This document shows positions 32,898 to 36,938 of a stretch of 46,288 bases of DNA, piece by piece. The translations under genes and the position numbers were made by a program. Numbering within the stretch: the first letter of the stretch is position 1; every line of letters begins with the position of its first letter. The notes under the pieces were generated by a model, which was not told the DNA's origin, made no database searches, and was given only the letters and a program-made list of their open reading frames with translations. This stretch comes from Peptococcaceae bacterium (GTDB taxonomy: Bacteria > Bacillota > Peptococcia > Peptococcales > Peptococcaceae): contig JAUNGU010000010.1 in NCBI GenBank assembly GCA_030524315.1, positions 1 through 46,288 of the forward strand, read 5' to 3'.

Positions 32898-35768
32898 TTA
32901 TTTTGCAGCGCGCCAGAGGAAGGTCACAATCTGGCCGCGGGTGCAATCGGCATCCGGGCTGAAGGTGTTCGTTGCAGTGCCATTGGTGACGCCGTTTTCG
33001 ACAGCCCATGCGACGGCATCGGCGTAGTAGGCGCTATCTGCGACGTCGGTGAAGCTATTGTCAGCGTTCACGGCTGGCTCGCCAGCAGCGCGCCAGAGGA
33101 AGGTGACGGTCTGCCCACGGGTCAGCGTCGCATTTGGCGAGAAGGTCGTGCTGGAGGTGCCAGCAGCGAGGCCTTCTTCTACCGCCCACTGTACCGCGTC
33201 GTGGTAATACGTCCCTTCGGCAACATCCGTGAATGGCATTTCTTCGCCCTTTGGCGCTGGCTGACCGGCCTGGTTCCAGAGGAAGCAGATCATCTGCGCA
33301 CGGGTGCAGGCGAGATTAGGGCTGAAGGTCGTGGCGCTGGTGCCGTTGGTGATTTTGTTATCGACGGCCCAGAGCACGGCGTCGTGATAGAAGGCATCGT
33401 CAGCCACGTCGGTGAATGGATTTTCCGGCGTTGGCTGTGGCTGAGGATCGACGCTCACTGCCTTGAAGGAGACGCTGACGTCCACCTTCGATGCAGGCAT
33501 CGTGAAGCTGTAGGTGCCGTCGCTGTTTGCAGTGACCTTCACAGCTTTGCCGTTGCGGTTGGTGACTTTGACAGCGTCAACCTCGTAGCCAGCATCGGCC
33601 TTGGCAGTGATGGTGACGGTTTTGCCACGAACAGCCTTGGTAGGGTTGACGGCCACCGTGCCGTGGTCGGCATCAGCCACGCCGATGGCGTAGGTGGCTG
33701 GGCCAGTGGATGGTGCCACTTCGATGGTCAAGGTACCAGGAACGTATTCAAAGTCGTAGTTCGTCGCTTCGCCACCAACTGGCGTCAGCTCGTAGCTGCC
33801 GACGGCCGTTTTGTCCGTGCTTACCGTTGGAGCGGTGTAGCCTGTTGCTGTATCTGCGGTCTCGCCATTGACAAAACCTTTCACTTCAACGGTCAGCGCC
33901 GGCGTTTCGCCCACACGAATAGTCTCCCCTTGATAGGTAGCGTTCAACATTGCCTTTTTCACTGTCAAAGAAACATCAATCCGATGGCTTGCGCCGTCAC
34001 CGGTGTAGACATAGACAGTGCCGGTGTAGGTGCCTGCGTTCAGACCATCTGCTGCAGTGATGGTGACGGTCATACCATCACGACTGACTTCAAATGCTTT
34101 CGAACTGCTTGTAGCATCTTTAATGCTGGCATCATTTTCCGGACCAGTCACACTCACTGTTTTACTAATGGCATCATCACCGTAGGTCATTTCCAGAGCA
34201 ACGCTCTTATCATTAATGCTGTAATCGTTGCTTGGTGTCCACTTAGCATAGTAATGTCCGTCTGCTTCTATTTTACTTACAGGGTTTCCCCAATCATTAT
34301 TTTCTACACCATTTTTTGTGTACCAGCCATCAAAAATATAACCATCCTTAATTGGCGTAGCAAGGGCATCGCTGGCAAAATTGGTATCCTCGGCAAAAGT
34401 GCCACCGTTTGTGATGGCGTAAACTGGACGCTCATCTATACGGCCATACACATTATCACTACTGAAATAAAAATATCTAGGAATATCAGAATTTGGTTTG
34501 TTATTTTTGAAAGCATTCGCCCAATTTGTAACTTGAATACTATCACTCATTCTTGTCGCATCAATTGCATAGGACTTCTCTGGAGAATTAGAAAAAGCAA
34601 ATTCATCGACAGAGGATATCCCCGAGCCTAAAACAATGACATCTGCACTGTGGTTTGCAAAAGCATATTGCCCAATTGTTGTGACAGTATCCGGAAATTC
34701 GATCTTTTTCAGAGCGGTATTCTGAAATGCTCTCTCACCAATGGTCGTTGCGCTCCCATAGTCAACATCTGCCAGACTCGTGCAACCATTGAAGCAGTTC
34801 GCAGGAACTTCGGTAATATTCTCACCTAGTTTAACGGATGCAAGAACCTTGCAATCACGAAATGCCGATTCTTCCACCGTGCTTACCAAGGAATTGCTAA
34901 AGTCCACCGAGGTCAGTCTGCTATTTGTAATATCACTCTCGCCAACTTTTCCTTCTTTGACATAAAACGCTTCCACACCAATTGTCGTCACATCATTCCA
35001 GTCTGTGATCTGCTGCAAATTTGCATTACCTGAAAAAGCGCGATATCCAATTTCTGTCACACCATCTGGTATAGCATATGTTTCTCCTGCCTTAGCGATT
35101 GGATATTGTGCCAGAGATAATGCACCATCTTTTTCTGCAAACAAGACACCATCGATAGAGGAAAATGTAGGATTATCCAATGACACCTCGAATTTTTCTA
35201 ACTTTGGGCAAAGATAGAACGGTGTATTACCCATTTCCTGAACACCGCTACCAATAGTCACATTTGTTAAATGAGGGCATCTCTGAAAGGCACCTTGGTC
35301 AATTTTTGTCACACTGTCAGGAATCGTAATAGAGGCTAAACCACTTCTCGTAAAAGCATATTGCCCAATCGTTTCTAGTTTCGGACTCAATGTCATAGAT
35401 TGCAGATGAGATGTGTCTGCAAATCCACCTAAACCTATGCTCACCACAGAATCCGCCATCTCTACCTTTTCAAGGGATGACGCACCATTAAAGGCATGAT
35501 TTCCTATGTTTGTCACGCCATCTTCAATGATGATGGTTTTAATATCTGCCATTGAATTCGTCCAAGGCTGTTGACCCTTAGTGTAATCTGGCATTTTCCC
35601 TGCTTCTGTTGTTTCTGCTGGTGAAATGGTCAAGGTGCCGTCAGCAGCAATCGACCAAGCGATACCGCCACTGGTGCCTTGCGCCTCATCTGCTGCCATG
35701 GCCATGGTCGGAATCAATCCCACCAGGAGACACAACGACAGTAAAAGCATCCATACTTTTTTGTACAT
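32898..35768 (-). CDS. Large BspA-like leucine-rich-repeat surface protein with three SLH domains
   Basis: The 956-residue product has a signal peptide (WMLLLSLCLLVGLIPTMAMAA) and then BspA-type leucine-rich repeats (about 60-420; for example LASITIPDSVTKIDQGAFQRC, IEFPDTVTTIGQYAFANH). An InlB-type repeat follows (DGYIFDGWYTKNG), then Ig-like/MBG-type segments (LNATYQGETIRVGETPALTVEVKG; YAIGVADADHGTVAVNPTKA) and three SLH domains (NPFTDVADDAFYHDAVLWAV; MPFTDVAEGTYYHDAVQWAV; NSFTDVADSAYYADAVAWAV). BspA-type proteins bind host matrix or other cells; SLH anchors it to the wall. The ATG at 35768 has AAAGGAAGC upstream. Its only strong promoter candidate lies in a segment bounded by inverted repeats and faces the wrong way (see 35822-36079), so the gene is likely phase-variable and silent as read here. 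Confidence 0.92.
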   Translation of the reverse strand: MYKKVWMLLLSLCLLVGLIPTMAMAADEAQGTSGGIAWSIAADGTLTISPAETTEAGKMPDYTKGQQPWTNSMADIKTIIIEDGVTNIGNHAFNGASSLEKVEMADSVVSIGLGGFADTSHLQSMTLSPKLETIGQYAFTRSGLASITIPDSVTKIDQGAFQRCPHLTNVTIGSGVQEMGNTPFYLCPKLEKFEVSLDNPTFSSIDGVLFAEKDGALSLAQYPIAKAGETYAIPDGVTEIGYRAFSGNANLQQITDWNDVTTIGVEAFYVKEGKVGESDITNSRLTSVDFSNSLVSTVEESAFRDCKVLASVKLGENITEVPANCFNGCTSLADVDYGSATTIGERAFQNTALKKIEFPDTVTTIGQYAFANHSADVIVLGSGISSVDEFAFSNSPEKSYAIDATRMSDSIQVTNWANAFKNNKPNSDIPRYFYFSSDNVYGRIDERPVYAITNGGTFAEDTNFASDALATPIKDGYIFDGWYTKNGVENNDWGNPVSKIEADGHYYAKWTPSNDYSINDKSVALEMTYGDDAISKTVSVTGPENDASIKDATSSSKAFEVSRDGMTVTITAADGLNAGTYTGTVYVYTGDGASHRIDVSLTVKKAMLNATYQGETIRVGETPALTVEVKGFVNGETADTATGYTAPTVSTDKTAVGSYELTPVGGEATNYDFEYVPGTLTIEVAPSTGPATYAIGVADADHGTVAVNPTKAVRGKTVTITAKADAGYEVDAVKVTNRNGKAVKVTANSDGTYSFTMPASKVDVSVSFKAVSVDPQPQPTPENPFTDVADDAFYHDAVLWAVDNKITNGTSATTFSPNLACTRAQMICFLWNQAGQPAPKGEEMPFTDVAEGTYYHDAVQWAVEEGLAAGTSSTTFSPNATLTRGQTVTFLWRAAGEPAVNADNSFTDVADSAYYADAVAWAVENGVTNGTATNTFSPDADCTRGQIVTFLWRAAK

Positions 35769-35821
35769 GTTGCTCGCTTCCTTTCTATAAAGGTCCTGCG
35801 CTGCTTGCGAAGGATGGCAGC

Positions 35822-35842
35822 GACAAAATGAACATTTTGTCC
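35822..35842 (+). repeat. Left 21-bp inverted repeat of the putative invertible segment
   Basis: The arms GACAAAATG and CATTTTGTC flank a central AA, with one further C on the inner side. The whole 21-base unit is the exact reverse complement of 36059-36079. Each unit is itself a palindrome except for the central two bases, as expected for a crossover site bound by two recombinase protomers. Confidence 0.9.
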
Positions 35843-35871
35843 TAGTGGATGGCACAAAAAATCTCATCCTG

Positions 35872-35913
35872 CCAAAAATAATCGGCGCTGGGCGTTCAGC
35901 CGATTATTTTTGG
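35872..35913. terminator. Bidirectional hairpin inside the invertible segment
   Basis: A 15-bp perfect stem (CCAAAAATAATCGGC / GCCGATTATTTTTGG) with a 12-base loop; T-rich on both strands. Confidence 0.8.
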
Positions 35914-35985
35914 GCGCACGAAGGTTGCCGCAAAATATTTTTTAACTGCGGCTGAATTTTCCATGTCCAAAAGTTGATGCAATCA

Positions 35986-36014
35986 TTGCTTTCAGAAACA
36001 AATGATGATATATT
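35986..36014 (+). promoter_or_regulatory. Promoter inside the invertible segment
   Basis: TTGCTT (35986-35991), 17-base spacer, TATATT (36009-36014) on the plus strand; in the present orientation it would give antisense RNA into the 3' end of the recombinase gene. Confidence 0.6.
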
Positions 36015-36058
36015 AATATTGTTAACTATATTATCGCTGACTAACGAGGGCTGGCTGG

Positions 36059-36079
36059 GGACAAAATGTTCATTTTGTC
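36059..36079 (-). repeat. Right 21-bp inverted repeat of the putative invertible segment
   Basis: Exact reverse complement of 35822-35842, with TT in the centre of the plus strand. It ends 16 bases from the stop codon of the recombinase gene. Confidence 0.9.
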
Positions 36080-36095: not shown

Positions 36096-36938
36096 TCATA
36101 GGACGAATCCTAGCCGCTCGAGGTCGCGTGCGTGCTCCTGGCCGCTGGTGACGAGGTAGAGGCGGGTGGTTTCGATGGACGAGTGACCGAGGAGGTCGGC
36201 GAGGTGGGCGATGTTGTTGCTGACCTTGTAGTAAGTGACGGCAAAGAGATGGCGTAGGTTGTGGGGAAAGACCTTGCGCGGGTCGACACCGGCAGCCGTG
36301 CAGAGGCGCTTCATTTCTGCCCAGATTTGTTTGCGCGACAGACTATGACCACCTTTAGTGAGAAAAATCTCGCCGAAGGTGATTTTTTTGTGCTTGGCGT
36401 AGGTGCGCAATTTTTTGCAGAGCTTGGCGGGAATGAGGATGGTGCGGATCTTGCCCTTGAGGGCGATGTCGGCGCGTCCGGCGCGCGCCGCCTCGACGGT
36501 GATGTAGCGCAGCTCACTGACGCGGATGCCGGTGGCGGCGATGGTTTCGATGACGAGCGCCAATCGCCGCTGGCCGCGTGCGCAGGCGGTGCCGACGAGG
36601 CGCTCGTAGTCGGCGCGGGTGAGCTCGCGGGTCGTGTCGCGAAAGAGGCGGCGCTGGATGCGCAGGTATTTGACGCGATAGTCGCCCCAGCCTGCGAAGG
36701 CGAAAAAGCTGTGGACGCTGGCGAGCATGGCGTTGATGGTCGTGGGCGCGTAGCCCGCCTCCTGCAGGCTCGCCTTCCAAGCGCTGACGCCCTCCTTGGT
36801 GACGGCGCGCCCAGCGAGCCAGCGGGCGAAGGCACGCAGGTCGCGGCCGTATTTGTCGATGGTGCCGGGGCTGCGTTCTTCCTCCCGGAGGTGGGTGCGG
36901 AAGGCAGCGAGATTTGCGGCGGTCAAGTAGTGGTTCAT
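36096..36938 (-). CDS. Tyrosine recombinase (putative invertase of the adjacent switch)
   Basis: The 280-residue protein has an N-terminal SAM-like core-binding domain (about 1-105) and a C-terminal catalytic domain with the full set of active residues: Arg139 (ATGIRVSEL), Lys in ALKGK (161/163), His226 and Arg229 (HNLRHLF), His252 (LLGHSS) and Tyr261 (TTRLYL). It resembles XerC/D-type and phase-variation recombinases in size and lacks the arm-binding domain of many phage integrases. There is no phage or plasmid gene nearby. The start at 36938 follows GAGGAG; a TACAAT -10 lies at 36971-36976. Its position 16 bases from the right inverted repeat suggests it acts on that site pair. Confidence 0.92.
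   Translation of the reverse strand: MNHYLTAANLAAFRTHLREEERSPGTIDKYGRDLRAFARWLAGRAVTKEGVSAWKASLQEAGYAPTTINAMLASVHSFFAFAGWGDYRVKYLRIQRRLFRDTTRELTRADYERLVGTACARGQRRLALVIETIAATGIRVSELRYITVEAARAGRADIALKGKIRTILIPAKLCKKLRTYAKHKKITFGEIFLTKGGHSLSRKQIWAEMKRLCTAAGVDPRKVFPHNLRHLFAVTYYKVSNNIAHLADLLGHSSIETTRLYLVTSGQEHARDLERLGFVL

Follow-up and report, generated by a model that had tools for sequence, protein, structure and literature searches.

A 216-bp segment located between a tyrosine recombinase gene and the gene for a large surface protein is very probably a phase-variable invertible promoter switch, caught in the OFF orientation. The segment lies in a Peptococcaceae genome, on a stretch of 46,288 nucleotides that was analyzed as a whole and is referred to here as the window. 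This reading is based on the layout of the locus and on comparison with a family of similar cassettes in other Firmicutes. The features of the locus, with the basis for each, are as follows.

32898..35768, minus strand: predicted controlled gene, encoding a 956-aa secreted surface protein (domain matches)
35769..35821, minus strand: leader between switch and surface gene, with ribosome-binding site AGAAAGGAAG (sequence)
35822..35842, plus strand: putative gene-proximal recombination site, left inverted repeat, GACAAAATGAACATTTTGTCC (repeat search and 50-locus site model)
35843..36058, no strand: putative invertible 216-bp segment, OFF in the assembly (repeats and family promoter and segment comparison)
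35872..35913, no strand: 15-bp hairpin, A/T-rich at the foot of its stem and resembling a terminator on both strands (on the surface-gene side of the promoter)
35986..36014, plus strand: predicted promoter inside the segment, TTGCTT (35986-35991), 17 nt, TATATT (36009-36014) (sequence and family promoter pattern)
36059..36079, plus strand: putative recombinase-proximal recombination site, right inverted repeat, GGACAAAATGTTCATTTTGTC (core inverted relative to the left site)
36096..36938, minus strand: Xer-like tyrosine recombinase of 280 aa (16 bases separate its stop codon from the site)

Read along the minus strand, the order is recombinase gene (36938 to 36096), 16 bases, right site, segment, left site, 53 bases, and the surface-gene start codon (35768). 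The two arms are 21 nt each, 100% complementary, and separated by a gap of 216 nt, matching the coordinates of the exact 21-bp inverted repeats in the original prediction. Intergenic inverted repeats that enclose a segment upstream of the controlled gene are what a fimS-like phase switch would have. Within the window, the 20-mer GACAAAATGNNCATTTTGTC occurs only twice when up to 3 mismatches are allowed, and shuffled sequences give a mean of 0.01.

The recombinase reading frame is open and contains all of the catalytic residues (R139, K163, H226, R229, H252, and Y261) in a protein with an N-terminal SAM-like domain and the catalytic domain of tyrosine recombinases. A linked recombinase with a complete catalytic set is likewise a feature of a fimS-like switch, and the open reading frame agrees with the complete recombinase predicted to stop 16 bases from the repeat. 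Its best PDB match is XerD (1a0p), and the nearest structures are XerD and XerA. The NCBIfam XerA and XerD models also match the protein, although all Xer models score far below their cut-offs (118 bits versus 329.6 for XerD and 108 versus 335 for XerC), which places it outside XerC/XerD. The surface protein has a signal peptide, LRR_5 BspA-type repeats, MBG_2, Flg_new_2, and three SLH domains. We assign its start to ATG 35768, which has the ribosome-binding site and lies 53 bp beyond the repeat; ATG 35867, taken from a mechanical list of open reading frames, merely marks the open frame and was rejected as the gene start.

The promoter is on the plus strand and currently points at the 3′ end of the recombinase gene, with the surface gene behind it, in the direction originally predicted. 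Its −35 hexamer, TTGCTT, is weak (3/6), the −10 is of the extended type with TG one base ahead of it (TGA), and the end of the −10 is 45 bp from the site that it faces. The TTGCTT/TATATT pair was absent from the output of a generic promoter scan, and no promoter was seen by promoter scan in the leader. The predicted 15-bp bidirectional hairpin was found between promoter and gene, with arms at 35872-35886 and 35899-35913 and a 12-nt loop. Because this hairpin reads nearly alike on both strands, the promoter is the part whose meaning would change upon flipping.

The genome that contains the window copy (C82) has three further copies of the cassette, on contigs C106, C10, and C78, with their parts in the same order. 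On C106, an 80%-identical segment is bounded by identical 20-mers and lies between the gene for a 67%-identical recombinase and that for a further LRR_5/SLH protein. The recombinases of C10 and C78 are 70% and 87% identical, respectively, and in these two copies the cargo is secreted and the site cores are different, with degenerate sites in C78. In all four copies, C78 included, a promoter of this kind is directed at the recombinase, corresponding to OFF. Between C82 and C106, TTGCNN and TATATT are kept at the same 17-nt spacing while the spacer sequence has diverged. The 20-mers had been predicted to be switch sites as opposed to scattered operators, and scattered they are not, although they are not unique either: the identical pair on C106 is an inverted pair beside its own recombinase and appears to bound a paralogous switch.

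The recombinase gene of the window looks like a mosaic of its paralogs when judged by sites common to one paralog only. The first ~450 nt side with C78 (81/99) and the stretch at ~450-630 with C10, whereas C106 is favored nearer the 3′ end and on into the switch. This pattern suggests gene conversion among the four cassettes of this genome.

A scan of one genome per species retained 80 family loci, with recombinases of 54-66% identity; these loci are related by descent, and counts among them are not fully independent. Most are in Oscillospiraceae and related gut Firmicutes. The layout is recombinase, site, promoter segment, site, and cargo, and most loci have an inverted site-like pair downstream of the recombinase; the first site usually lies at the stop codon or directly beside it, and ~250 bp is a common distance from there to the second. 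In the GTDB class of the source genome, 4 of the 46 genomes examined carry the recombinase family at the cut-off used, and its distribution across Firmicutes is patchy. The small number of carriers in this class, with most relatives in Oscillospiraceae, suggests that the family has spread horizontally.

When the sites were re-chosen from the eight outermost bases of each side alone, both were found in 50 loci. The 4-nt cores were exactly inverted in every one of these (200/200 positions), with 29 distinct left cores represented. Re-pairing arms between loci gave 2.4 exact pairs on average and 9 at most, and read as direct repeats the cores match in only 2 of the 50 loci. Additional loci in which both arms were recognizable also had inverted cores (5/5; L017, L127, L129, L133, and L134). 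On this comparative evidence, the repeats appear to behave as inverted recombination sites with homologous cores.

Site-to-site spacing is periodic at ~10.75 bp (R 0.56; 46 loci, close relatives removed), and none of 4000 jittered sets reached as high a value. The distances cluster one helical turn apart, at 230-232, 238-242, 250-254, 261-266, 271-274, and 280-286 bp, and the window spacing of 238 bp falls within one of these clusters. Such helical spacing is a signature of DNA looping, expected where two sites have to come face to face within a short loop. Six loci (L047, L052, L083, L085, L098, and L116) have three site copies instead of two, and the third copy could provide alternative segment ends.

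To assign states, we used the promoter pattern TTGNNN-17-TANNNT ending 20-65 bp from the facing site. A promoter inside the segment pointed toward the recombinase in 40 loci and toward the cargo in 14, with ~1.5 expected for each, a pattern in which promoter direction follows segment orientation. One locus has promoters both ways and seven have neither, giving a promoter in 55/62 loci; OFF, with the promoter at the recombinase, is the commoner state in the family. The −10 is extended in 49/54 of these promoters. The distance from promoter to site is usually 43-48 bp in either direction, with a minor mode at 34-38 bp, and because one mode dominates, the periodicity statistic for this distance was excluded from the evidence. 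Long hairpins are enriched in family segments (stems of at least 9 bp in 39% versus 1% of shuffles). A motif resembling AATATGTA recurs in many segments (L049, L056, L059, L125, and others), in the stretch from promoter to facing site, and might be a binding site for a regulator or an accessory protein.

The remainder of the segment follows the promoter. With promoters removed, same-state pairs align natively and opposite-state pairs align flipped in 211/229 pairs at a stricter threshold, and the same agreement is seen in 300/338 informative pairs at a looser one. For the window segment, 11/11 informative pairs agree at the lower threshold, comprising five ON relatives that align flipped and six OFF relatives that align natively. 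State does not cluster on the recombinase tree, where it changes 12 times compared to 12.7 for shuffled labels.

One orthologous case is a pair of other family members, L113 from a named Peptococcaceae metagenome-assembled genome (MAG) and L118 from a named Lachnospiraceae MAG, whose recombinases are 86% identical and whose downstream gene is the same. Their intervals align at background natively (z 1.3) and strongly when one copy is inverted (z 21.6), with the flanks in register and a shared TTGTAA-17-TATACT promoter. The orthologous interval thus reads plainly as inverted between unchanged flanks, and both orientations are found in related genomes. Class-level and phylum-level genome searches found no same-genus copy of the window locus, and scans of viral contigs with the recombinase and with the 21-mer found no close copies in the opposite orientation. 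The original prediction of promoter inversion is borne out at the family level by the inverted cores, the two promoter orientations, the reversal of the segment, and the L113/L118 pair.

Each window site is an almost perfect palindrome whose orientation is visible only in its central AA/TT, as had been noted before and as is true for this one site pair; the two 20-mers might for that reason be a pair of operators, with no flipping, or direct repeats. We consider the operator reading extremely unlikely. Cores of 29 kinds in 50 loci are always exact inverted partners within a locus, the sites abut the recombinase gene, and the segment is reversed in other members. Exactly inverted yet varied cores are a demand of strand exchange and not of operators, so the alternatives raised by the earlier caveat fail; core covariation and segment reversal rule out both operators and direct repeats for the family. 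The same two lines of evidence lead us to reject, as vanishingly improbable, the reading in which the recombinase is the integrase of an integrative element and the sites are its attachment sites. Many tyrosine recombinases are integrases and this family is patchy across Firmicutes, but the sites are inverted, 238 bp apart, and have a promoter between them without element cargo, the stereotyped cassette occurs at unrelated places, and the recombinase query found no relative in the viral collection.

Transcription might instead enter from outside, on the recombinase side, with orientation deciding only whether an RNA terminator forms; the 15-bp hairpin lies within the segment, and the geometry is like that of cwpV (PMC2784873). 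This is highly improbable: 55/62 loci have a conserved promoter within the segment, set at a fixed distance from the site, and flipping a hairpin that is nearly the same on both strands changes little, which leaves promoter direction as the orientation-dependent feature. It is also very unlikely that the window copy is a relic that once flipped and is now locked OFF, with a recombinase that is silent or acts elsewhere. C82, C106, and C10 are all OFF, C78 also faces its recombinase and has degenerate sites, and the recombinase gene is a mosaic of paralogs. On the other hand, this gene is open with all catalytic residues, the sites are perfect over 21 bp, the promoter hexamers of C82 and C106 were kept while the spacer diverged, and OFF is in any case the commoner state in the family.

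An invertible promoter switch at the window locus would operate as follows. The Xer-like recombinase would bind the two 20-bp sites (arms GACAAAAT and ATTTTGTC, with a 4-nt core) and flip the segment by strand exchange within this core. In the OFF state, the promoter would read into the recombinase 3′ end, with the terminator-like hairpin standing between the recombinase and the surface gene. After flipping to ON, the hairpin would be behind the promoter, which would face the surface gene across a ~110-nt leader. Expression of the BspA-like surface protein, anchored by its SLH domains, would thereby be turned on or off in a subpopulation, reversibly and heritably. Adjacency and co-occurrence point to the window recombinase as the enzyme that acts on the window sites, and we infer that the window copy still flips. 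The transcription proposed for each state is deduced from promoter direction, and the hairpin may serve as an insulator. The OFF-state promoter would be antisense to the recombinase gene and could conceivably have antisense effects there or bias the switch toward OFF.

Surface proteins are not the only cargo. In 13 related loci (L050, L052, L054, L060, L061, L065, L070, L078, L083, L086, L094, L100, and L120), the cargo protein instead contains recurring zinc-ribbon-like motifs and has an N-terminus of the MxESLYEYC... type. In 17 others of the related loci (L046, L047, L053, L056, L067, L068, L079, L087, L091, L093, L096, L097, L099, L102, L103, L113, and L118), the switch is followed by the gene of a second tyrosine recombinase, a distant one with about 33-43% identity; a gene for a secreted protein or exopolysaccharide often comes next. 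This second recombinase would be made only in the ON state. The idea of a chain of switches was dropped after a search for a further switch past the second recombinase gave one weak candidate (L091) in 16 loci.

We offer, as a tentative view that may well prove wrong, that the family consists of horizontally shared, self-contained one-bit memory cassettes, in which site arms are constant and locus-specific cores let the switches of one genome be addressed separately. In a subset, an ON-only second recombinase would be placed to bias or reverse the switch, and C82 and C106, which have identical sites, could cross-react. The anatomy of the family follows a clear rule (recombinase stop, site, segment, site, cargo), and the ON/OFF state can therefore be read from a single assembly. 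With its natural set of different cores and helically spaced sites, the family also opens site choice and synapsis to direct tests.

In gut Firmicutes other than C. difficile, phase variation by promoter inversion is poorly described, whereas Bacteroides and E. coli offer well-studied cases. The window recombinase is Xer-like, as in XerC/XerD-dif, whereas its sites and genomic role differ and its model scores are far below the cut-offs. In fimE-fimS-fimA, a recombinase gene, an invertible promoter segment, and a surface gene follow one another on one strand. The window recombinase, promoter-bearing segment, and surface gene share this order and strand, but the cargo is an LRR/SLH protein, the sites are different, and there is one recombinase gene compared to FimB plus FimE, the enzymes that invert the promoter of the E. 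coli fim switch (PMC2784873).

The original prediction had likened the locus to C. difficile cwpV/RecV, and both do have 21-bp inverted repeats ~200 bp apart upstream of a large surface-protein gene, together with a site-specific recombinase. The cwpV repeats are 195 bp apart and 57 bp before the start codon, the cwpV promoter is upstream of and outside the inverted segment, and control was proposed to occur through an RNA terminator (PMC2784873). Since the window promoter is inside the segment, the analogy fails on mechanism, and the window recombinase is, in addition, adjacent to its sites. The better parallel for the proposed window switch is fimE-fimS-fimA.

A probable published relative is inverton group 139/invertase group 35 of gut Clostridia, which lies beside a tyrosine-type recombinase family and flips at the level of sequencing reads (PMC11892184). 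Published group 139 examples, from Clostridium sp. D5 (arms 26, gap 205) and Intestinimonas butyriciproducens DSM 26588 (arms 14, gap 227) (PMC11892184), have spacings within the range of the window cassette family. I. butyriciproducens An565 carries two family cassettes, whose spacings differ from those published for group 139 (PMC11892184). From the compatible spacing and the shared species, group 139 is likely the same family as the window cassette. Flipping of a Clostridia inverton group that is probably identical has thus already been published (PMC11892184), and the window switch would be a further member.
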